Part shown: piece by piece, positions 25,012-63,967 of the stretch
How the letters are laid out: every line of letters starts with the position of its first letter
How positions within the stretch are numbered: position 1 is the first letter of the stretch
Source: Diadema setosum
Taxonomy: Eukaryota; Echinodermata; Echinoidea; Diadematoida; Diadematidae
Direction of reading: 5' to 3'
Length of the DNA stretch: 64,000 nt
NCBI RefSeq assembly: GCF_964275005.1
Contig: NC_092695.1
Coordinates: 15,880,111 to 15,944,110, forward strand
Notes under the pieces: model-generated
What the model saw: only the letters and a program-made list of their open reading frames with translations
The model's database searches: none
What the model was told of the DNA's origin: nothing
Program-made: the position numbers and the translations under genes

Positions 25012-25814
25012 ATAGTTACGTTCAGACGGGATCCCTTAACTTCGAGGTTAGAGCTTGTAGTTAGGGACCGTGAAGACGCACTCGTAGTTAGCATACCTCG
25101 AGGTTTGCTCGATGTTTCGAGCCACGAGAAATCTTATGGTCAGCGCTCTAACCACGAGTCGCGGGGGGGGGGGGGGGTCCCACTCGTAGTTAAGCACCGT
25201 GTGGACACAAAGAACAACGAACTCGAAGTTAAGAGTGACCTCGCCGTGAACTCCAGCCCCCACAATTTCCCTCTGCTTCCGGGTCAACCTCCCAAACGTA
25301 CACCACAAATACACTACACGTGCGCCCGAGGTGAAAAACCTATGACGCACATCACAACAGCATCATCTTTTCTTCCCATGCGCTTGATCTCTGAAACTGA
25401 ACACGTCGAACTCGCTACTGTATTCTATATTCTTCTCCGACGCTAAAACATTGTTTTCGACGAATATCTTCATAAAGCATAAAGTCATCAGTGCAGTGCT
25501 ATCTCTGCATACCATGACAGAGGAAGCTGGTGCCGCCGGTGGGAAAAAAGAGTACCGGTAAGCGAGTCCGACAGGGTTGGACTAAAGAAGAAATAGACGC
25601 CTTGTTAGCAGTGTGGGCTGAAACTTCCGGTTTTGTGGGTTTAACATCGAGTGGGACCCACTCGTAGTTACGGGGGGCAGAAGCTTAACCTCGAGGTTTC
25701 GTAACCTCGAGGTTAAGATTCGTCGTGTGGACACACGTCGTAGTTAGGGGGCAAGAGCTAAACCTCGAGGTTTCCTAACCTCGAGGTTAGGGCCTGCCGT
25801 CTGAACGTAACTAT
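25012..25814. mobile_element. Myb/SANT-bearing deletion derivative inserted in the MADF ORF
   Basis: The inverted ends ATAGTTACGTTCAGACGG are exact over 18 bases and flanked by TA (25010-25011, 25815-25816). Removing the insert and one TA restores the host frame as ...KNKP|YYAQLTEAQ. Inside, near 25514-25640, MTEEAGAAGGKK and (next frame) RQGWTKEEIDALLAVWAE form a Myb/SANT-like domain start, shifted by one base at an A6 run. The remainder is non-coding with repeated AACCTCGAGGTT palindromes, notably at 25685-25790. Confidence 0.75.
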
Positions 25815-26619
25815 TATTATGCCCAGCTGACAGAGGCTCAGAAGGAAGAGTTGATTGATTGGTTAAAACAGAACCCGTGCATCTACTCCAAGAGGCTGAC
25901 TGAGTACAAAGACACACCAAAAAAAGAGAAGCTATGGAAAGACAAAGCCAAAGCGATGGGTTTGGAGGTGGCAGCCCTGCAAACCTTCTACAAATCAAAC
26001 AGAACCCAACTGAGCCGCCTGAAGAAGAGTGTTGGGAAGTCTGGTGATGGTACAGATGTTCTAGAGGACCTGTCTGCTACTGATCGATGGATCTGGGAAA
26101 ACTTCTCCTTTCTGAAGGATCACATCGAGACAGTTGAGCGCAGAAACGTCAGCATCCATGACAGAACTGGGAGGGTAGCAGGCGGGACAGCACCAACATC
26201 CACAGCTACTGGGTCAGCAGCAGCAGTACCACCTACAGCAGCCTCAAAAATCCAGTCAGACTCTGGGTCAGAGTCACAGTCTACAGACCCCTCCTCTCGA
26301 TGACACTCCACAGAGAGTGTTGACCTCAAACAAACTCTGATGGAGTACATTTCTGGTTCCAAGAAAGTGGGTCCCTCCCCCTTTGCCAGACATATAGACG
26401 AGGGACTCGCTGAGCTTCCCAGCGACATCAGACGCACAACACAGCTGAAGTTGATGGCCGTTCTCTACGAGGGGCAGAAACAGGCTGAAGAGCGCCAGGA
26501 GATGCAGCAGCAGGTGCCTAGTACACTGCAGCCTACCTTCCCACAGCAGCAGCAATAGGTCGCCCCCTTCTAGCCACACCCTCAGTCGTACATGGCAAGC
26601 CGTTTGTGTAAAAAGTCGA

Positions 26620-27215
26620 TAAACTCTGTTTATCAGTGAAAAACAGTGTTTATCAACTGATAAACACAGTTTTTCTTTGATAAACTGAGTTTATCAACTG
26701 ACAAACACAGTTTTTCTGATAAACTGTGTTTATCAGCGATAAACTCTGTTTATCAATTGATAAACACAGTTTATCAATTTGATAAACTGAGTTTATCACT
26801 TGATAAATTGAGTTTATCAGAAAAATAGTGTTTATCAGTTGATAAACACAGTTTATCAAAGAAAAACTGTGGTTATTAGTTGATAAACACTGTTTATCAG
26901 TGAAAAACAGTGTTTATCAACTAATAAACACAGTTTTTCTGACAAACTGTGTTTATCAGCGATAAACTCTGTTTATCAATTGATAAACAGAGTTTATCAA
27001 TCTGATAAACTGAGTTTATCAGAAAAACAGTGTTTATCAGTTGATAAACACAGTTTATCAAAGAAAAACTCTGTTTGAAAAACTGTTGATAAACACTGTT
27101 TTTCACTGATAAACACAGTTTTTCTCTGATAAACTGTGTTTATCAACTGATAAACACTGTTTTTCTGATAAACTCAGTTTATCAGTTGATAAACAGAGTT
27201 TATCACTTTTGATAA
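26620..27215. repeat. GATAAAC palindrome array, left arm
   Basis: About 30 units of TGATAAAC...GTTTATCA, some with one half changed to GAAAAAC, alternate with 1-3-base spacers. Open frames of the type NxVYQxIN/DKLCLS are artefacts of the repeat. Confidence 0.95.
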
Positions 27216-27536
27216 GCAGAGTTATTTATATCTCCACAAGAGAGGGCGTTTTCACTGTTTGATATGTTCTGCTCGTTGATAATAATCGCAGCGCTAGAGC
27301 TTGCAATGTATCGCTGTGCTAGTTAGCTAGCTATTCACAAACTGGGCCGGGCGCGCGCGGCTGCGGGCGCGCGTTGTGTCTGTAATTCTGGCAACGTTTT
27401 CGGTAATCGGTATCTGGTGTATAGCACCTCATCGGAGGGGGCAGGAAACACAAGAGCAAGAACATACATGTGCGATAAGTTGGCCTGCGATATAAGGCCA
27501 TCACTCGTCACACTCGCGTCATATACCTGTCCACTT

Positions 27537-28200
27537 TTTTTTTTTTTTTTTTTTTTTAATTCAAGTTCCATATTCCACATTCCATATTCAGGTTTCATAT
27601 TCCATTTGATTTCGGAGTAAAATATGTATAACACAACATTCAATTTTAGACATAATTTCACAAATGTACAAGGACAGTAATATAATGATGTGTAAATATG
27701 AGGAACCTACTAAAAAGCAATGCTTGTAGGGTGTAGGTTCCAAAGAAATAATATAAGTGTTTAGTACAACTGTTACATGCTAATTACGAAAAATGACGAA
27801 ACACAAGCGAAAATCGGTATGTCGAGATTATAATAAACTCTACACGGAATGTACAAAATAGTTTATGATGTTCAAGGTAAAACTCAGGGATTCAATGCTC
27901 CATAAGATTGCGCTATTGGTCAAAGAAATGTGGTCAAATGAAGTCACCCGAGCGAGGCATCATTGCGAATAAGAACAGATATATCAAATGGTCACGGCAA
28001 GTAAAGGATTTTAAAAAATTGGCTTTTAGATTTTGCTTATTTAAAAGGAACTTAGAGAACTTGATTGCAGCCGAACAGAATCTAACTCATTCCAGAAAGA
28101 AGGACCGGTAGAAGTAATTGTCTTAAGGGCTAAAACTGTACGAACGGGGGAAAAGTGATATGATCCACTGTGTCTTGTAGGGTAATTATGAATTTCACTG
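27537..28200 (-). mobile_element. LINE 3' fragment with poly(A), inside the fold-back element
   Basis: On the minus strand HNYPTRHSGSYHFSPVRT, then TSTGPSFWNELDSVRL and SSSLSSF are a degraded reverse-transcriptase C-terminus. It ends with ~23 A (27537-27559 on the plus strand as T). It is 5'-truncated and broken by stops, and belongs to a different family from the copy at 24040. Confidence 0.7.
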
Positions 28201-28359
28201 TTTTTACTTCCCGGCAGCTGCTCTCTTCCCGGCTGGCCCCGCGTACATGTACAGTGCCGTATATAATCACTAGCTGTAGATCTACGTACATGTACGTATT
28301 AACAGAGCAGACGGCTCTGCGTATTAAATGCTGCTAGCGCCCACTACCGAGAAGGTTTG

Positions 28360-28885
28360 AATAACTCTGCTTTTCTCTGATAAACTGAGTTTATCAAGCG
28401 ATAAACTGAGTTTATCAAGCGATAAACAGAGTTTATCAGAAAAACTGTGTTTATCAGTTGATAAACTCAGTTTATCAAGTGATAAACAGAGTTTATCAGA
28501 AAAACTGTGTTTATCAGTTGATAAACAGAGTTTTTCTGATAAACTCTGTTTTTCTCTGATAAACATAGTTTTTCTTGAAAAACAATGTTTATCAGTTGAT
28601 AAACACAGTTTTTCTGATAAACTGTGTTCATCACTTGATAAACAGTGTTTATCAACTGATAAACACAGTTTTTCTGATAAACTCTGTTTATCACTTGATA
28701 AACTGAGTTTATCAACTGATAAGCTCAGTTTTTCGTGTTTATCACTTGATAAACTCAGTTTTTCTTGAAAAACAATGTTTATCAGTTGATAAACACAGTT
28801 TTTCTGATAAACTGTGTTTATCAGTTGATAAACTCAGTTTATCAAGTGATAAACAGAGTTTATCAGTGAAAAACAGAGTTTATCG
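28360..28885. repeat. GATAAAC palindrome array, right arm
   Basis: About 28 units of the same 17-base near-palindrome, in inverted arrangement relative to the left arm. The inner boundary AATAACTCTGCTT is mirrored at the inner edge of the left arm. Confidence 0.95.
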
Positions 28886-29375
28886 ACTTTTTACACAAAC
28901 GGCTTGCCATAGCCGTACCTTCCCAGCTCCACCAGCAGGCATGACGTCACAGAATCACCAATGGCATCCTCCACCATCCCAGTGGCCAACCCAGATGACA
29001 GGACAACAGACCAGTCTCTGGCGCTCCCAGGACCCTCAGTTCATGAGTTCACAGTTCCCTGCCATGTACTCACAACCATCATTGAGATCCTCCGTCCTCA
29101 TGGACCTGGACACGGGAACAACACGTCCCGTCTCACCCATACCAAGATCATCTACTCCCTTCACCGCTACCAGCTCCTAAGGGTATGCTGCTGCTGCTAC
29201 TGCCGCTGCTGACAAGACCACTGACTCCCTGAATCTGACTGACATGGTCAACAGAGCCATTACCGCTGCAGGTATCTCCACCAGGCCACCATCTCCTGTG
29301 ACTCCTCTGGGAACTCCTCCAGGACCGGAAGATGACACCACCAAGAAGTGAATTCAGTGACTTTTTTTTTTTTTT

Positions 29376-40900: not shown

Positions 40901-41396
40901 GCTCCCAGTTGTGTGACTTGACAAGCTCCACGGAAGCATATGACGTTTATTGTAATCCTTTCAAAAGCTGAGCCAGTTAGACCTGGCCTAGACGTCACAT
41001 GATCGAAAGATATCTCTTTAGCAGAGCATTCGTTTTAGTCGGCGTTGCAAGCGATATGAGAGTTGCATATTGGATGGAAAAGTTTGACAAAGGTAAACAC
41101 GTCATCGAATATTTCACTCGTCGTTTGCGGTAATCGCAGCATTGGACAAGTTATAGTCACCTTTCTTTCAACGATTTCAAATTCCCGGGCTAGTTCATCA
41201 TAGACATTATATAAAAAATCAGTCGTGCATGAACTTTCGAGTACGAAGTTTACGAAAAGGGCGGGTTTTGTTTTCATAGTAGTTTGGGCATAAAATCTGT
41301 AATCGTTGGTAGAACTCTGCCGGTATCAACACGCCTATTGGTTGAGGGGTCATATAATATCGGTTGCCTCGTTGCAGAACTATAAAACCATATTTT
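37868..41396. promoter_or_regulatory. Upstream region of Cdx (promoter not resolved)
   Basis: No gene is recognised. A G18 run lies at ~38840, a G10 run at ~39628 and an A20 run at 39402-39421. 40300-41390 is freer of repeats and more GC-balanced than the DNA around it, with CCAAT (40716) and Cdx/Hox-like ATAAA motifs; it is the likeliest place for the promoter and 5' UTR. No TATA box can be assigned with confidence. Confidence 0.4.
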
Positions 41397-41901
41397 ATGA
41401 TGACGCTCGAGTATCTGCACCCGCAGCAGGCGGAGAGTATGTACCTCCACCCAACCGCCCCGGGAACCTTCCCGCAGCAGGGCCATCATCCCGCTCCGCA
41501 TCATCAATTTTCCTCGGCCGAGTACTGGCAGCCCCTGCCTTTCCATGGGGTGACTGGAGGGGAGAGCGGCCAGGCGGCGACCGCCTCGTCTCAACTCCAG
41601 CACAATTCGGGAACGGGCTGGAGCACTAGTCTGCCCGGGGCAATCTCGGCAACCTCAGTCGGCACGACGACGTCTGGAGATTGGCCGTACTTCCATCATC
41701 CGTCAACGAACTCGACAAGCGTATCGGGAGGACCAACTTCTGTATATTCCGGAAATGTAGATGATTTCTCGAACGGGTCCGGTCAATCACAAACATATAC
41801 CAGTTCAGGCGGCATCCAGTCTGTTGCCCAAGCTCTTCATCGGCCTTTGAGAACGTATGACTGGATGAAAAGTTCGACATATCGCTTCAATCCACAAACA
41901 G
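41397..41901 (+). CDS. Cdx: Cdx exon 1 (N-terminal activation region, YDWMK)
   Basis: Two ATGs in a row (41397 and 41400); the second has the better context (A at -3). The exon ends ...YRFNPQT plus G, then a GTAATT donor (phase 1). It is GC-richer than its surroundings. The open frame also runs upstream of the ATG, but without a start codon that fits the family. Confidence 0.95.
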
Positions 41902-44690
41902 GTAATTCTGTTTATTCTTGATGCAGACTCACGAACATCTTACAAAATAGATCACGGTTCACATGCAGTTCTTACACAAAAGGTCATCCACTTAGGCGTT
42001 CTTGATTTCAATCGACTCTAAAAAAAGATTGTTTTTACGCTACTGGAATAAAACATAAAATATCACGGAAAAGATGTTCACACAAAGCTAGCTACTTCTA
42101 AATTTCTACGAGATAAATGAGGTAATCATAACGTTCCCATTTCTTGTCCACATTGCAAGGTTAGTAAGAGATGTTCTCAAGATGTATGAACACTATTGAG
42201 GATAACAAATTTATATCACATGTGATATCTATGCATGATTATGTACAATTTTGCTAAACGAACGAAAGACTAGGTAATATCAAGAAAATTTCCGACTTGA
42301 ATTCTGAGTGCACTTTTTTTCGGAGATATTTATATCTCGTCTCAAAAAAAAATAGTTTTTTTTTTGTGTGTGGAAAGTTTACATAATACGGGGAGAGATA
42401 ATCATAGTTACAATGTATTGTACCTTCTTGAGAACAAACGCAATTTAAAAACAAACAAACAACTTTCTGAGTAAGTTCTTCCTTTGTTTTAATTTACTTT
42501 AAATGACTTGATGGGGAACAAATATTAATGGATTTTTTTCACATTTTCGTGATTTCATTTTCTTTATCGACATATATAGATACCAAAGCTATTATTTCTA
42601 CAAGCAGAGATTATTGGCCTACATATAAATCTAAGGCAAACGAATATGATTGTGAGCAGACTGGGAAAGGTTCGAGTGACGCATGGCAGTGACAACGACA
42701 AACGCACCAGTTGAGGAATTAACATGAAAAACAAAATTAGTATTATTATTATTTTGCAAAAGTGTACACAAAATTCACCAGAACAAATGTAGCATATCAT
42801 GCTGATTTTTTTTTAAAGAGAAATCCACTTTTGAAAAGAAACTCTTATATTAAAGGACAAAAATACTTAGGGTGCATTGCATTCAAATTCTAGATAGATT
42901 GATATGTATTCTTACATAATATACACCGAGCACGTAAATACAAATATATAGGCCTGGAATCAACACGAAACGATCACCCAAGCAAGAAATCTAACACTCT
43001 AGAGATGACTTTTTAAAGTTTTCCTCAAGATTTTCTATTTAAGTGTGCAGATGAAACCTGCAAGTATGATTAAATATTATTTTCCAAAAAGTCAATTTCT
43101 CATTTCATAAAATGTTTTTCCAAAGATACAAATTAATTGGACTGAAAATTAAATTGATTCTCAGGTCATTAACATCGACGATGAACACATAATATGGGGA
43201 AAGAATAATAACTACGGTAACTTAATCTTATAAACAAAACAAACAAGCAATGCAGAAGAGTTAGTTACAATTACACAAAAAATTACATTTAGCTGTCATG
43301 GCAAAAGAAATAACTGCACTCGAAAAGATTGCCTTACCTTTTATGGTAAATGTAAGGTGAATAAATCCCATTGTCATTTTCATCTTGCTATCAAATGATT
43401 TCATCCGGGTCCGGCGTGACGTAGCGTAACACGTTACTCATTTTGAGGCACAGCAATCATTTTCTTCCTTCCAGTTGATAGTCCACATGTGAAATTCAAT
43501 TTTTGCTTATTTGATGAGTTAAATACACTAACGAAGAATCAAAACATTGAAATGAATTGGATGCGATGCCCATTTTGATCGCCGTTCTATAAACTGAGAA
43601 GATGAGAGCGGTTGATACCAGTTTTGTTGACGGGGTTCGCGCCGCTGGCATCTCTGTGTCACACACACACACACTCGCCATTCTTGGCGCTCCCATAAAA
43701 GCAACGGATATATGGCTGCCAATAACAGTTTTATAATCCATACTGTGCGCTGAAAGGCTCTTTTATTGTACAATTTCCACTAGGTATTTTGACTAATACA
43801 CGTTTTATTACTTCAGAGCTACTTTACATTCAGTCTCAATTATTCTACGTGATGGTCTTTACGTGCTGAAGAAAGCTATTACTTATACTTCTTCACCTTT
43901 TAAAATGTCTTTTCTTGGAGTTAGCATTTACAGCCGAATTCTATCGAACGCTTAGCAAACATTCAAGTGAAGATCTAAAATCCCATTTATAATAACATAA
44001 AGCTATCATGCCAGCCACCCAACTCGATCAAAGGTGATAGCTTACAACGATGAAAAGGAACAAACCTTCAAACTACGTTTTCTGTATCCTAAATGCACAA
44101 GAAATAGAGGCAAGATATCTTCCACGTTTTTCGAGGTCAGTTAAAAAAAGACAAATGTAAATATAATCACAGTGTGTTGATATAGGAGTAAATACATATG
44201 CATTAATACTTTTTGATGAAGGAGAAAACAAAGAAAACTTTCTTTTCGTCAGAGAATGACGCGCATAACTGTATTCACATAGATTATGCGATGACTGCGC
44301 TATTGTACATTCGCTTCAAAGAAGATATCGATATACCATCGATAAATTTCGTCACTTGATACTTTGGAAGAAGAGACAAGACGTTTCTCGATGTCGAATA
44401 TCATTAACAAGATATGATGAATAAGCTCTCACCACATTTGTATTCGATACTTTTGATACTGACATTTTTTAACGCTTTTGCCAAACATCCATCATCAGTG
44501 AATGAAATAGATAATTGCAATAAAATATGAACGATTGGTTTTATTCCGAAACCATGTTCCAAGACTTTCCTGTGTCACTTACGCAAGTGCTTTACAGATT
44601 GCAGTATATAGTTACAGTGGATCACATTACAGAGAAATAACTCAATCAATGTAGTTGTAGATTACTTTATATAGAGACCACAACATTTTG

Positions 44691-56700: not shown

Positions 56701-58664
56701 TTCCAAGCAGGCAAAACTCGGACCAAGGATAAGTACCGGGTCGTGTACACTGACCACCAGCGATTGGAGTTGGAGAAGGAGTTCCATTACAGCCGCTATA
56801 TCACGATCAGACGAAAGAGTGAACTTGCCTTGGCATTGGGCCTCTCTGAACGACAGGTGAGAACTTAATATTTATGTGGATACTTTGACAGAACTAATGA
56901 CAAGAACTTGACGGACAATATTTAAACATTAAGATGGGAAAATCATCTGCAGTAGGCATATAGCTTGACTTAAAAAAATCGTTCAAACAAAGACTACCTG
57001 CGCGAAGAGGGCTTTAAAAAGGGGAAAAAGCGAACCCCAACAAACGGAAGCCAATGTTATTATGAAGATGTACTGTTGTTTTAAACGTGATTTGCACCAT
57101 TAGTGTTTGTATAAAAATTCATGAGTACTCGTTCCAAGTTAATGAGTGATGGATTTTTTTTTATATTTCTCTTTTGATATCGTTATCCCTTAATGTGCAA
57201 TGAATAGCTTACTTACGAGAAAGAAATCAAGATGTCGCTATCAAATCCGATAGGTCGTAAAAAACCCCAAGAAAATGGCAATACATAATGATGCATGCAC
57301 ACTATCCTTTTCTTGTAATCAAGTTGCAAATACGATTTCAAGATATAACTTCACCTTCAATTATTCTTCATTAATCTTCACTGAGGTTATACACAAACAA
57401 CACCACAGTCTTAAAAAAAACCATGATGAAGTTATGAGAGTATCAACAAATATAATAGTTATGATCTTTCTAAGTGCAGCAGTTGCAATCATAATATTTT
57501 CATGTCAAATGTAATATGTAATTAGACCGGGGGCCCAGAGCATTTATTCAGCTGAAAAGGGTCACACTTTTTGATGGTCTCATCATGTAAGGATGTGGCC
57601 AAGGGTCAATAAAATGAATTGCTGGCAAGTCACATCCTGTACCGTAAGCCTAGGGACCACAAAAAGGGACCCCGAAAAATGGATTTATTCAGCCGAAGGG
57701 GGTCACGGACAAAAGTTGGTGGATATTGTTCCTTTGGGTGTACTTATCATGAAAACAGCAATGCCAGCTATTTTATCCTGTACGGGGCCCCAGACAGTAG
57801 CCCCAAAGGGCCCCGGAAATATGGTGTTATTCAGCTGAAAAGGGTCACGGCTAATTTCTTTTGCAATGGAAGTAGTTCCCATCAGAGATATCCAAAACAC
57901 CAATGCCAGCTATTTTATCCTGTACGGGGCCCTAGACAGTAGCCCCAAAGGGCCCCACCCCCCATAGGCCTACGTATAAACACACACAAACATTGATTTT
58001 ATTCAATTAAAAAGAGTCAGGGCTAATTTCTTTTGCAATGGAAGGAATACCAATCAGAGATATCCAAAACACCAAAGCCAGCTATTTTATCCTGCACGGG
58101 GCCCCAGACAGTTGCCCCAAAGTGCCCCACCCCCTATAAGCCCTACGTACAAACACACACACACATTGACTTTATTCAGCTGATAAGAGTAACGGCTAAT
58201 ATCATTTGCAATGGAAGTAGTACCCATCAGAGACATACAAAACACCAAAGCCAGTTATTTTGTCCTGTACGGGGCCCTAGACAGTAGCCCCAAAGTGCCC
58301 CCCCCCCCCAACACACATACTCACACAATAGTTTCATTCACCTGAAAAAGGGTCACGGCTAATTTCTTTTGCAATGGAATTAGTACCCATCAGAGAAATC
58401 CAAAATACCAAAGCCAGTTATTTTATCCTGCATGGGGCCCCAGACAGTAGCCCCAGATAGTAGCCCCAAATTGCCCCCTTACCCCCTCCCCCTCCCCTCC
58501 CCCCCCCTCCCACACACACACACATTGATTTTATTCAGCTGAAAAGGGTCACGGCTACTTTCTTTGCAATCGGAAGTAGTACTCATCAGAGAATAATATC
58601 CAAAGCACTAAAGCCAGTTATTTCATCCTGTACGGGGCCCCAGACAGTAGCCCCAAAGTGCCCC

Positions 58665-58724
<60 letters not shown>

Positions 58725-61553
58725 TGGTTTCATTCAGCCGAAAAGGGTCACGGCTAATTTCTTTTGCAATGGAAGTAGTATCCATCGGATATCAAAATAC
58801 CAAAGTCAGATATCTTATCCTGCACGGGGTCCCGTACAGTAGCTCCAAAGTGTTTTGCTTTATTCTCTTTGTTGTGTGCATCTCTTCTTCTTAGATATGC
58901 GCTCCTTCGTCTTCATTTTCGCGACAACGACAACGCGTCCTCCTCGTCATCATCAGTTTTGCTGTTCTGGCAAACATTTTCCAGCGTATCGGCCATACGT
59001 TCGATTTTAGAGCGGCGAGAGCGGAAGACGTGCATAATTGAGTCCGGGAAAGCGTAGGAACAGCGAAGCTAAAGCGGCCAACAGCGTTATCGAAGCAGGA
59101 ATGAAGCGTCGTAGGAACAGGCCTTGATTTTATACGAGAGTAGAGAACTATGAGAGCGTCGTTAAAGCGGGAAGGTCGTGCTTTGATCAAGAAAGCGGCG
59201 TAGCAGCGGGACCATGTCGTCGGTGTCTAGTTTAGACTATATTTCCCGTTCTTGTGCCGCTGTTACTACGGTCAGAAAAACCTGGAATTGTTACGCCCAT
59301 CCCGCGGTATTTACACTGTCACTGCTCTCTCCCCGTTTGAGCTACGATTCAAAATAGGTCAATCTTGATGGGGAGATGAGGAAGAAATTTTGAACCAGTT
59401 CAAAATTTCTTCCCGATCTGTAAAATTGCCAGATCCAACCCCATCACCCAAACGCTGCTGCTACGATGCTCCCGGTCCCCGTACACTTTTGCCGCTCTCT
59501 CCCGATCTGACAGATTGAATAGATCGGGATGCAGATCTTGATAGTGGAATTACATGTGGGGACACTTTAGGAACACTCCGTGGGGCCCCGTACAGCTATA
59601 TAACTGGTTTCGGTGTTTTTGATACCTCCTTGAGTACTACTTCCATTGCAAAAGAAATTATAGCAATGATTCTTTTCACTTAGGACAAAATAATACGGGA
59701 GCACTTTCCAGCTACTGGCTTGGGGCCCCTTAACTGGATGGGTTTGTGTTTTACGTATCTCAGCTGTTAATTCCACTGCAAAGGAAAATAGGCACACATG
59801 ACTGTTTTCACCTAAAAACAATTAATTCATATGGGGTGGGAATACCTTGGGGCTATACCTGTCAAGGGCCCTGTATCCGGGCCAATATCGCACCTCTTTT
59901 AATCGAATTCTTTAATGTTGAATTAAATTTAGCAAAAATTTCGCCTAGATGACATGGTAGTTCAATGTCATATTAATCTCTTCGTTCAAATTTATTTTGA
60001 AACATTCACATTACCTCTAACCTTATTCTAAATAACACTTTTTCAACTAAAATCCATACATAAGACAAGTACCATTCCACTATCCGTTCATTCATAAATT
60101 CATAATGATATAGTCACGTGATTACATGCTGCGCTCGTTCATTCAAATTGATTTCTGGCCATCTAATTTAACATGTTCTGCAGTCAATTAAACAGATATG
60201 TTCATGCTTGGCCTCTTTCCTTATTTTCTTTCGTCGTAGTTATTGTTTTGTAAGCATCATAGCATTTCATGTTTTCGTATTCGTTTAAGAGACTTTGACA
60301 CCATTTTTTAACGTGCTTTTTGAATCCAAAGAAGTAAGAAGCCACAAATTATCTGGCCGTTACGAGCGCTTTATTACGAGCGGTCGGCCAGTAACAAGAA
60401 GTCATGGTTATGATCCTCAAATGTTTGTTGTTTGTTTTTTTTTTTATAATTCTTTCTATGTCTTCTAGAGATATACGTCTGTATATATTGTGCTGTCATG
60501 ACTATAAAAAATGAAGTTAAGCTGCATTACTGGTACACGTATAGGCCTATAATGACATGTATATGAAAGAGAAGGAGCGTTACCAGTCTGGTTACAGAAC
60601 AACCAAATCCAGTTATACTAGATAAGAAATATGACACTTTTACTGCTTTATAACAGTAATTTATAGATGAAACGAAAACACACATAGAAAGACATGTTAA
60701 AAAGATCTGAAACAAAGAAATAGCATGATTTGAATTTGAATGAACACGTTTGGAATTTGACTGTCTTTCGCGAAATTTAATGACTGAAATACACTTTTCG
60801 GCAAGTCAAGGCGAATTTGAATGAACGTAGGGTACCAGCCAATTTGAATACCCATTTTACGAATTCGAACCTTCTATCAAAATTAATGAACCAACAAAAG
60901 TGCGAAATTGGCTGGGAAAACCTAACTGGCTTTGATGTTTTGGGTATCTATGATGTAAACTAAGGCCTACTTCGATTGTAAAAGAAAAACAACTATGACT
61001 CTTTTCAGCTAAGGAATGATGTCATAATAATTATGTGGGGGAGGGGCACTTTATAGCTACTGTAACCTGGGCCCAGTACAAGATGAAATGACTGGTTTTC
61101 GTAATATGGTCATCTTGGTTGTGCACTATACAGAAGTATGCTTCCTTTGCAAATTTCTTGAGTGTTTTGCTACTGTAACCTATGGGACCCCGTATTCAGG
61201 ATAAGATGACTTGCTTTAGTGTTTGTGATATCTCTGTTCAGTAGGCCCTGATATTAACGTTACAAAAGAATTTGTAAGACCATTTTCAGCTGATTCACAG
61301 TACATGTATAATGGATGGGACACTGTGGAGCTACTGTCTAGGGCTCTGTGCAGGATGAAATAACTAGCCTTGGTGTGTTGAATATCTCTGATAGGTACTT
61401 CTTCCAGTGCAAAAGAAATTACCCGTGTTTGGGGCTATACTGTGCGGGGCCCCATACAGGATAAAATAACTGGCTTTGGTATTTTGGATATCTCTGATGG
61501 GTACCACTTCCATTGCAAAAGAAATTAGCCGTGACCCTTTTCAGCTGAATGAA

Positions 61554-61603
<50 letters not shown>

Positions 61604-61755
61604 AGAGAGGGGGGCACTTTGGGGCTACTGTCTGGGGCCCCGTTCAGGATAAAATAACTGGCTTTGGTGCTTTGGATATCTCTGATGGGTATACTTCCAT
61701 TGCAAAAGAAATTAGCCTTGACCCATTTTGGCTGAATGAAACTAATGTGTGTGTG

Positions 61756-61809
<54 letters not shown>

Positions 61810-61951
61810 GGGGGTGCACTTTGGGGCTACTGTCTGGGACCCCGTACAGGATAAAATAACTGGCTTTAGTGTTTTGGATATCTCTGATGAGTATGCCTAC
61901 TACCAATTGCAAAAGAAAGTAGCCATGACCCTTTCAGCTGAACAAAATCAA

Positions 61952-61982
<31 letters not shown>

Positions 61983-63967
61983 GGGAGCAATTTGGGGCTA
62001 CTGACTGGGGCCCCGTGCAGGATAAAATAGGTGGCTTTGGTATTTTGGATATCTCTGATGGGTACTACTTCCATTGCAAAAGAAATTAGCCGTGACTCTT
62101 TTCAGCTGAATGAAACTAGTGTGGGTGTGTGTGTCGGGGGGGGGGGGGGAGCTCCTTTGGGGCTACTGTCCGGGGCCCCGTACTGGATAACATAGCTGAC
62201 TTTGGTGTTTTTGATATCTCTGATGGGTACTCCTTCCATTGCAAATGAAATTAGCCGTGACTCTTCTCAGCTGCACGAATGAAATCAGTGTTTGTGTGTG
62301 TTTGTACGTATGGCCTATGGGGGTGGGGCACTTTGGGGCTACTGTCTGGGGCCCCGTACAGGATAAAATAGCTGGTATTGGTGTTTTGAATATCTCTGAT
62401 GGGAACTACTTCAATTGCAAAAGAAATTAGCCGTGACTCTTTTCAACTGAATAAAATCAATGTTTGTGTGTGTTTGTACGTAGGCCTATGGGGGGTGGGG
62501 CACTTTGGGGCTACTGTCTGGGGCCCCGTACAGGATAAAATAGCTGGTATTGGTGTTTTGAATATCTCTGATGGGAACTACTTCAATTGCAAAAGAAATT
62601 AGCCGTGACTCTTTTCAACTGAATAAAATCAATGTTTGTGTGTGTTTGTACGTAGGCCTATGGGGGGTGGAGCCCTTTGGGGCTACTGTCTAGGGCCCCG
62701 TACAGGATAAAATAGCTGGCATTGGTGTTTTGGATATCTCTGATGGGAACTACTATCATTGCAAAAGAAATTAGCCGTGACCCTTTTCAGCTGAATAACA
62801 CCATATTTCTGGGGCCCTTTGGGGCTACTGTCTGGGGCCCCGTACAGGATAAAATAGCTGGCATTGCTGTTTTCATGATAAGTACACCCAAAGGAACAAC
62901 ATCCACCAACTTTTGTCCGTGACCCCCTTCGGCTGAATAAATCCACTTTTCGGGGTCCCTTTTTGTGGTCCCTAGGCTTACGGTACAGGATGTGACTTGC
63001 CAGCAATGCATTTTATTGACCCTTGGACACATCCCTATATGATGAGACTATTAAAAAGTGTGACCCTTTTCAGCTGAATAAATCTTCTGGGCCCCCGGTC
63101 TAAATCAGCATATGGATTTATAAATTGTCCATATCTAGATAAAGCTTTTTTCTTTATTCTCATGGAATGGAGAGAAAACCAAGCATTTTTTCTTGAATAA
63201 GAGTATATTTAGTATCTGCATAGGTAATAGTCTCTCATAAAGTTCATTTATTAACTGTTTTGTCAGAATTTCATGTCTATCATTCCTCTGGAAAAACATT
63301 TTGATCATCTTAAAGTATATAATGATTAATGGAATAGAAATGGAAAAGTGTATGTTCCTCATTTCTTGTGTAAACAGTACAAGTTATATTCATTTCAAAT
63401 TGGATATATATTTTTTCTTATGCTCCCATTGCACCAGTGCAATGCAAACACAATGACGATTTCACTGTTACTTCCCTATCTCAGGTGAAAATCTGGTTTC
63501 AAAATCGTCGCGCCAAAGAAAGAAAGATGACAAAGAAAATGAAACTACAAGATAGCCAGTCGCAGCCACAGCAGCAACAAACACAACAGCATCGGCAACA
63601 ATCGGAGGAGAGAACCTCCCAGCAGCAGAAGGATTACAACCACAACCATCAACAACAACAACACACCCACAACCAGCATCACCACATTCATAGCATTTCG
63701 CACTCCGGCAACTCTCAAGCTCTCACCGACACCAAACCCAAGCTGCCTATCACGTCATTACCAACCCCCATCAGCAAAACCGCCACCCTGTCACCCATCG
63801 CGTCAACTCCGCATACCGACATTGTTGAAGCTGCCGTGTGCGGAACGCTAACTGCAGGTGACGCCGTCAGCTCGGGCCCGATAGGGCAGAGCTCGCTTCA
63901 CATTCCAATCACGGACTCTGACGTTGTGAACATGCTGAACGTTAAAACGCCTTCTCTGCAGGCATAA
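41397..63967 (+). CDS. Cdx: Cdx / caudal ParaHox homeobox gene (3 coding exons)
   Basis: Exons 41397-41901, 56711-56856 and 63485-63967 join in phase to 377 residues. Residues 1-168 are a Gly/Ser/Thr/Gln-rich activation region starting [11 protein letters not shown], with the Cdx hexapeptide-like YDWMK at 154-158. The homeodomain is at ~174-233: [39 protein letters not shown], ending [14 protein letters not shown]. Trp221 and Asn224 are homeodomain 48 and 51. The tail is Gln/His-rich. The intron between homeodomain residues 44 and 45 is the classic caudal position. Cdx is a nuclear transcription factor of posterior and hindgut patterning. TTC29 lies 27 kb upstream in the opposite direction; Gsx and Xlox are absent here. 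Confidence 0.97.
41902..48131. other. Cdx intron 1, first part
   Basis: AT-rich with no gene. It holds an (AAT)n microsatellite at 44690-44750, a C19 run at ~45748, a G18 run at ~45924, and a small palindrome ACCCACCTTTTATCC / AAAAGGTGG near 46921. Confidence 0.6.
44690..44750. repeat. (AAT)n microsatellite
   Basis: About 20 AAT repeats with one GAT interruption. Confidence 0.95.
48132..48227. repeat. Tiny (96-bp) hairpin MITE
   Basis: TAGCCGGGTTCACACGTAC and ATTAGCGGGAT at the left are mirrored by ATCCCGCTAATT and GTACGTGTGAACCCGGCTA at the right, around a short centre with AAATCTCGAGATTT. The ends TAG...CTA suggest a TA target. It is one of the smallest complete palindromic elements here. 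Confidence 0.8.
48228..51805. other. Cdx intron 1, middle part
   Basis: No gene seen; T/A runs (48439-48459, 48830s, 49038-49058) and AT-rich unique sequence. Confidence 0.5.
51808..52290. repeat. Fold-back array of GAGCTCGACAC units
   Basis: Five units of the form CACGAGCTCGACAC...GGCCCA lie in the left half (51843, 51931, 51998, 52028, 52058). Five inverted units (GTGTCGAGCTCGTG...GGGCC) lie in the right half (52115, 52156, 52181, 52212, 52258). The ends CTCAACGGGG and CGTTCTCAG are weakly inverted. Spacing is 35-70 bases. No coding. Confidence 0.75.
52291..56075. other. Cdx intron 1, last part
   Basis: No gene. AT-rich. A faint relic of the MITE family of 4044-4484 is visible near 54825-54850 (TTGTCCGATTTTCCTCA, TTCACTGAT). 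Confidence 0.5.
56079..56531. repeat. Inverted-repeat MITE in Cdx intron 1
   Basis: GAAATCGGATGAAAAATAAGG and GTTATGACATTTTGAA at the left are mirrored by TTCAAAATGTCATAATTTCC and TTATTTTTCACCCGATTTC at the right. Arms ~105 bases, total ~450. It sits only ~180 bases before the homeodomain exon. Confidence 0.8.
56711..56856 (+). CDS. Cdx: Cdx exon 2 (homeodomain residues 1-44)
   Basis: The acceptor is TTTCCAAGCAG and the donor GTGAGA. It encodes [17 protein letters not shown] through LGLSERQ. It enters completing a Gly codon and ends on a codon boundary. Confidence 0.97.
58668..58718. repeat. (CA)n inside a fold-back unit
   Basis: About 24 CA repeats. Equivalent (TG)n tracts occupy the same place in right-arm units at 61557-61602 and 61746-61808. 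Confidence 0.95.
58870..59560. other. Centre of the fold-back element, with AAAGCG-type short repeats
   Basis: It differs from the tandem unit. 58960-59210 carries about a dozen AGAGCG/AAAGCGG/CAGCG motifs, similar in style to Harbinger subterminal repeats. 59390-59420 is a hairpin (GAAGAAATTTTGAAC / GTTCAAAATTTCTTC). No protein domain is recognised in the 99-codon minus frame. Confidence 0.5.
63103..63484. other. End of Cdx intron 2
   Basis: Unique AT-rich sequence between the fold-back element and the exon 3 acceptor, with a weak polypyrimidine tract before CTATCTCAG. Confidence 0.6.
63485..63967 (+). CDS. Cdx: Cdx exon 3 (homeodomain helix 3 and C-terminal tail)
   Basis: The acceptor is CTATCTCAG. 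It encodes [18 protein letters not shown], a Gln-rich run (~239-275) and a His-rich run ([11 protein letters not shown]), ending ...VKTPSLQA and TAA at 63965-63967. The window stops 33 bases later, so the 3' UTR is not seen. Confidence 0.96.
   Translation: MKIWFQNRRAKERKMTKKMKLQDSQSQPQQQQTQQHRQQSEERTSQQQKDYNHNHQQQQHTHNQHHHIHSISHSGNSQALTDTKPKLPITSLPTPISKTATLSPIASTPHTDIVEAAVCGTLTAGDAVSSGPIGQSSLHIPITDSDVVNMLNVKTPSLQA

Follow-up and report, generated by a model that had tools for sequence, protein, structure and literature searches.

Fold-back transposons whose long arms are internally repetitive have already been described, the best documented being Galileo and Tetris (PMC3688188, PMC4079207), and fold-back elements in general are known from several organisms, among them a sea urchin (PMC4079207). 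According to excerpts of the Galileo literature, binding tests located THAP-domain binding sites in the arm repeats, about 40 bp of the tip are conserved between families while the arms are family-specific, and the function of long repetitive fold-back arms in general is described as uncertain (PMC3688188). The element analyzed here resembles Galileo, which belongs to the P superfamily of Drosophila, in its long internally repetitive arms and in a tip that is conserved while the arms are family-specific; unlike Galileo, for which the transposase is known, it has a 6-bp target duplication, a TA..TA tip and palindromic units, and the copies examined yielded no transposase. Like Tetris of Drosophila virilis it is a non-autonomous fold-back element with tandem repeats in long arms, but its units are palindromes of 17-21 bp and its duplication 6 bp, in place of the TIR-220 repeats and 8-10-bp duplications given in the Tetris excerpts (PMC4079207). 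TA..TA termini and 6-bp duplications are shared with the IS3EU and GingerRoot groups, from which it differs in that no integrase-type transposase was found here and in its fold-back arms, a feature that the excerpted account of those groups does not mention (PMC10045372). In the open-licence literature, which was the scope of our search (Repbase and most subscription papers lie outside it), we found no description of this element, its tip, its palindromic units or sister families that share the tip, and the element's sequence strings returned nothing about transposons by title among the matches listed. An earlier note on this DNA had known no described family like it; this stands for the element within that literature, and falls for the fold-back kind, which is known. 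Sea urchin TU elements, said to have been reported in 1983, are reportedly fold-back elements with arms of 15-bp tandem repeats and 8-bp duplications; compared by this description only, the present element is alike in its fold-back form and short-repeat arms and unlike in repeat and duplication length.

The window, by which we mean the whole stretch of 64,000 nucleotides that was analyzed (contig C11:15880111-15944110 of genome G000), was compared with the genome of 912,680,840 bases in 102 contigs. Contig C102 of this genome (15,708 bp) carries COX1, whose frame stays open under the echinoderm mitochondrial code, with AAA at positions where a conserved asparagine is expected (as in RMNNMSFW), AGA/AGG for serine and TGA for tryptophan; this makes an echinoderm the most likely host, and we guess at a sea urchin from the size of the genome and a homeodomain exon in the window. 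The element occupies positions 26591-28911 of the window and consists of two arms enclosing a middle. It is preceded by the left target duplication GTCGTA (26585..26590) and opens with the left tip (26591..26631, plus strand), whose first base, T in most copies, is C in this one. The left arm (26618..27205), a chain of 17-bp palindromic units that we call arm type 1, is followed by the left part of the element's own middle (27206..27534), by a dispersed repeat, about 670 bp long and bearing a poly-T/poly-A end (27535..28206, minus strand), and by the right part of the middle (28207..28366), which has 29 matches genome-wide. The palindromic units of the right arm (28367..28884) form arm type 2, and the right tip (28871..28911, minus strand) ends in GGCTTGCCATA, directly before the right target duplication GCCGTA (28912..28917). 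Elsewhere in the window, several blocks of 140-200-bp tandem repeats lie at 57827-62962, and the stretches 41358-41921 and 63374-63967 look like exons of a homeobox gene, which we take to be of the Cdx type, with the end of the homeodomain in the second.

The fold-back element recognized in the earlier note is borne out by inverted arms of internal repeats and by many copies with the same tip in the genome, with two corrections of size: the perfect outer inverted repeat (26592-26631 against 28871-28910) measures 40 bases instead of 39, and the array of near-palindromes holds 54 units instead of about 60. The latter count refers to GATAAAC-NNN-GTTTATC with up to two mismatches per half, a loose rule that finds 54 units within 26592-28910 and 14 in the remaining 61.7 kb of the window; under the strict rule there are 45 units in the element and none in the rest. 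Dyads, counted when at least 7 of 8 pairs match, number 38 in the left arm (shuffle mean 1.7, largest 4) and 33 in the right arm (mean 1.1, largest 4), compared to 4 in the middle (mean 1.4, largest 5). Higher-order repeats of 223 bp and 60 bp overlie the units within the arms.

A search of the assembly with the inverted repeat, which the earlier note had proposed, revealed that the element has many relatives. With up to three mismatches a 33-base tip gave 25 forward and 24 reverse matches, 49 in all, and the reversed control gave none; the possibility that no second copy exists, on which the earlier note would have given up its reading, therefore fails. A 20-base tip at the same tolerance gave 77+78 matches against 38+40 in the reversed control, so these weaker matches are partly due to chance; viral contigs contained no exact match to it. 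Our sample of the window's family, family A, comprises 32 loci including the window, that is, 30 fetched tip places and L052, which was added through an exact match to the 20-base tip. The 18 copies in which tip pairs were found at once span 0.37 to 4.1 kb, and the longest copy (G000 C16:11387713-11398344) reaches 10.6 kb; by eye, the middle of the latter holds mariner-like and LINE-like fragments, and its flanking 6-bp duplication is AACGTA, separated from the left tip by 2 extra bases. Arm runs range from roughly 160 to 870 bp between copies, and arm length and middle are both variable, a feature of the fold-back class. Two loci that had been admitted by tip similarity, L053 and L054, were dropped, since they encode proteins that look by eye like those of DIRS-type retroelements; near the start of these retroelements lie TATGGCANGCC words that resemble the transposon tip (L054 300-400, where they are 41 bp apart, and L053 on the minus strand), a likeness probably due to chance. 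The tip is also present at L059 and L060 (500 bases read) and L062 (300 bases read) with no such arrays, and at L061 together with a few words like those of family B described below.

The element starts with TATGGCAAGCC and has TA..TA ends, the termini of IS3EU and GingerRoot. There are 39 exact ends starting with TATGGCAAGCC, and the left end of the window copy has CA instead; with few exceptions, T precedes ATGG and A follows CCAT. When these T/A bases are assigned to the element, 21 of the 29 tip pairings tabulated (16 of family A and 5 of family B) are flanked by a 6-bp duplication, exact in 19 and with one mismatch in 2; six fetched loci, L051, L053, L054, L056, L057 and L058, lie outside this table. 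The pooled target consensus of both strands is T-R-C-G-Y-A, with a central CG in 13/21. Among the 8 pairings without an in-register 6-bp duplication, L014 and L016 do contain the duplicated bases, but 1 or 3 extra bases precede the left tip; the extra 1-3 bases in these two copies and in the C16 copy possibly reflect imprecise joining. L021, a family A pair in TACG-rich surroundings, and L047, a pair of family C, have no matching duplication in register, while in L033, L036 and two pairings of L043 a tip and an unrelated match were probably brought together by chance.

The window copy, with GTCGTA on the left and GCCGTA on the right, has a corresponding empty site: an element-free paralogous target on contig C1 reads GCCGTA and is 89% identical over the joined 320 bases. 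What the element splits is a MADF-domain gene with its downstream part (25791..29180, plus strand, MADF E 1.9e-7), and the frame of this target has stops outside the element too. We take this gene to be probably part of a Harbinger-type transposon.

The history of the family can be followed through the repeat in the middle. Of 40 scored places in the genome, 33 match window 27535-28206 by that stretch alone, and the version without the repeat is seen in L009, L012, L016 and L036, where TACCTGTCCAC is joined directly to TTCCCGGCAG with at most one base changed. Seven copies carry the repeat at the same place (the window copy, L010, L011, L019, L026, L028 and L029), so the element was still moving once the repeat was inside it. 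The middles of these carriers differ by 1.7-5.2%, with a mean of 3.3% over 21 comparisons. Family, tips, 6-bp duplication, empty site and spread after the repeat insertion show that the element is real and mobile.

No transposase gene was found in L019, L016, L026, the C16 copy or families B and D, and the autonomous partner that the earlier note had proposed to look for did not appear in the long copies, in families B and D or in integrase profile searches. Most hits of the profile searches were long frames that we took, by length, to be Ty3/gypsy; one of them was inspected. A hit to rve_3 at 5 kb from a family B tip was set aside as a Ty3/gypsy-like fragment, showing by eye an HHCC-like motif and RNase H. 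In the excerpts available, IS3EU is characterized by TA..TA termini and usually 6-bp duplications, and GingerRoot mostly likewise (PMC10045372); judged from its ends, the element would be mobilized by an enzyme of this type. MuDR and its kin are listed there with target duplications of 4-10 bp (PMC10045372, PMC3706591), a range that includes the 6 bp found here, which is below the 8-10 bp of Tetris, and a Mutator-like enzyme would be compatible with this length. Dada is described in the excerpted text as having no terminal inverted repeats and inserting into small RNA genes (PMC3706591). This does not fit a 40-bp inverted tip and a MADF gene as the window's target. Membership of the P superfamily is likewise not supported, as Galileo and other elements of that superfamily have 7-8-bp duplications and the one here is 6 bp.

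The two arms of a copy are different arrays. In none of 13 two-armed copies was a copy's own right arm the best match of its left arm by shared 18-mers: the overlap is 0.04-0.24 between own arms and 0.29-0.74 with the best arm of another copy. By eye, the first 150 bases show that most copies have one arm of each of two types. Three copies of family B behave in the same way, with 12-mer overlaps of 0.13-0.23 between the left arm and its own right arm and of 0.72-0.91 between left arms of different copies. Because own arms are less alike than arms of other copies, pairing between the arms is not homogenizing them, and we reject homogenization through pairing for these 13 copies and the three B copies. 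The arms of L074, a family D copy, resemble each other more closely (0.52), which speaks against raising the left-right difference to a general rule. The earlier note's remark that the two arms can pair therefore applies to the 40-bp tip and unit by unit, and not to the arms as whole arrays.

Within the arms, the half-sites follow a grammar. They mostly alternate in direction, and a 3-base centre was found in 850 strict cases at 31 loci. Neighbouring units are mostly separated by 4 bases when both adjoining half-sites are GATAAAC (391 cases), 1 or 3 when one of them is GAAAAAC (180 and 137 cases) and 2 when both are (30 cases), which agrees with the earlier note's impression that the GAAAAAC variant is patterned. 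Centres of the form W-S-W occur in 998/1077 loosely defined units of the 32 A loci and in 58/60 strict units of two D copies. Units with both halves changed to GAAAAAC account for 2/850 strict cases at the 31 loci and for 23/1077 loose ones, one of them in the window copy. Since the family A copies descend from one master, the honest sample consists of the strict units of the window copy (0/45), L074 (0/47) and L075 (0/13), in which about 4 doubly changed units would be expected by our own arithmetic if the halves were independent. As units of one array are non-independent and the events few, avoidance of doubly changed units is suggestive, not strong; a pooled permutation (23 seen, least 47 in 10,000 shuffles) is not relied on, because it treats copies of one master as independent. 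Five arms showed no consistent arm-wide helical phasing of half-sites: the peak period was 9.8-10.2, the strength at 10.5 bp was 0.10-0.21, and gap-order shuffles reached the observed strength in 144, 25, 387, 37 and 1 of 500 cases.

Counting the element's own family, this most likely echinoderm genome, probably that of a sea urchin, contains at least four related families. Family B, with exact 6-bp duplications at L039, L040, L041, L044 and L055, has an exact 17-base tip with 6+9 matches genome-wide (control 0) and left and right tips that have only TATGGCAAGCC in common. Its arms are GATATC-centred palindromes with a period of about 22, giving 17 and 11 dyads against shuffle means of 1.9 and 0.9 (largest 4 and 3). 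The inner part of B (L039 774-3848) has a second pair of inverted arms with 36/73-bp repeats; the middle that they enclose matches 40 scored places, many of them not near a B tip, and this part may therefore be a separate fold-back element captured by B. Family C (L045-L050 and L063) has the tip TATGGCAAGCCGTTCGGGTC and ACGT-rich dyads, which exceed the shuffles only weakly (6 and 5 dyads, shuffle means 1.0 and 1.2, maxima 4 and 5); the pattern TATGGCAAGCCGTTV gave 12+7 genome matches (control 0), and L047 is the one C pair examined for a duplication. The word GATAAAC is nearly absent from B and C loci, at 0-2 per 6.3 kb. Family D (L074 and L075) combines GATAAAC units as in family A with the tip TATGGCGCGCCGTTTCACC. 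It was reached through a double-unit pattern with 176+176 genome matches (control 0), since among 100 matches listed some lie away from A copies. Its duplications, CACGTG and CGCGTC, are exact in 2/2 copies, and one D arm shares 0.04-0.06 of its 18-mers with A arms.

We propose, at about even confidence, a non-autonomous fold-back DNA transposon that carries in its arms arrays of dyad sites, to which a transposase or a partner protein binds. The transposase, provided in trans, would cut at the TATGGC[AA/GC]GCC tips and insert the element into mostly CG-centred sites, copying 6 bp, and the GATAAAC-WSW-GTTTATC dyads would load many transposase copies, or a recruited protein, beside each tip. That a transposase from elsewhere moves the element follows from its tips, its duplication and the empty site; the putative binding-site role of the arms is suggested by the dyads, which recur in sister families, and by the precedent of Galileo. 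Against one arm-binding transposase shared by all families is the fact that B and C would need the same unit, yet differ. Unrelated units beside nearly the same tip would require different reading proteins, and we tentatively consider, as a rather unlikely extension, a modular group in which a fixed tip of 11-14 bp and the 6-bp rule are kept and the arms are swapped, each array being read by its own partner.

The most serious alternative is that the arms are passive, a palindromic subterminal word having been amplified by replication slippage and unequal exchange with no role in transposition. Such a process would suit arm runs that vary several-fold in length among copies, the 223-bp and 60-bp repeats in the window's arms and the unrelated units of B and C; nevertheless, the dyad design recurs in B and weakly in C, and D again has W-S-W centres and no strict unit with both halves changed. 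We therefore regard passive arms as a possibility of some weight, though short of probable. An action of the arms by folding, with cruciforms or hairpin RNA driving excision, replication or silencing, appears improbable to us. A 397-nt piece of the left arm does fold far better than 100 shuffles (z -27), but one GAAAAAC is enough to leave a unit with almost no fold (-0.6 kcal/mol) and 19/45 strict window units are of this kind, and the 0/13 copies in which the own second arm is the best match indicate that arm pairing is not homogenizing.

Could the arms instead be a mobile enhancer, bound by GATA-type and forkhead-type host factors at TGATAA and ATAAACA? The earlier note had put such strings at over a hundred per copy, and we counted 112 in both arms (73 TGATAA/TTATCA and 39 ATAAACA/TGTTTAT), and the element lies about 12 kb ahead of a possible exon of a Cdx-like gene; as candidate GATA or forkhead sites, however, the strings are a resemblance only. 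B and C keep the overall design with hardly any GATAAAC, and the window copy sits inside what is probably the gene of another transposon, which makes this explanation very improbable. We give least credence of all to the hAT-type MITE with an 8-bp duplication hinted at in the earlier note, for although 7/8 flanking bases agree in the window copy (AGTCGTAC/AGCCGTAC, one mismatch), the 8 bp are exact in just 1/18 paired copies and the 6 bp in 19/29 pairings, and the pooled flanks, with TA..TA ends, do not support it. Some hAT lineages have shorter target duplications.

The past mobility of the element is directly shown by the seven carriers of the inserted repeat and by the empty site, and its arm arrays have been inherited as two distinct types. 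As the families combine nearly the same tip with different arms, the function of the arms, their turnover and their supposed pairing can be tested separately. Returning to dyads as loading sites, if the modular reading of the group were true, the cutting end would stay the same while each arm and its reader evolve together as lock and key do, and within one array the pattern GATAAAC-WSW-GTTTATC, in which changes to both halves at once are very rare, would record the footprint of that reader.
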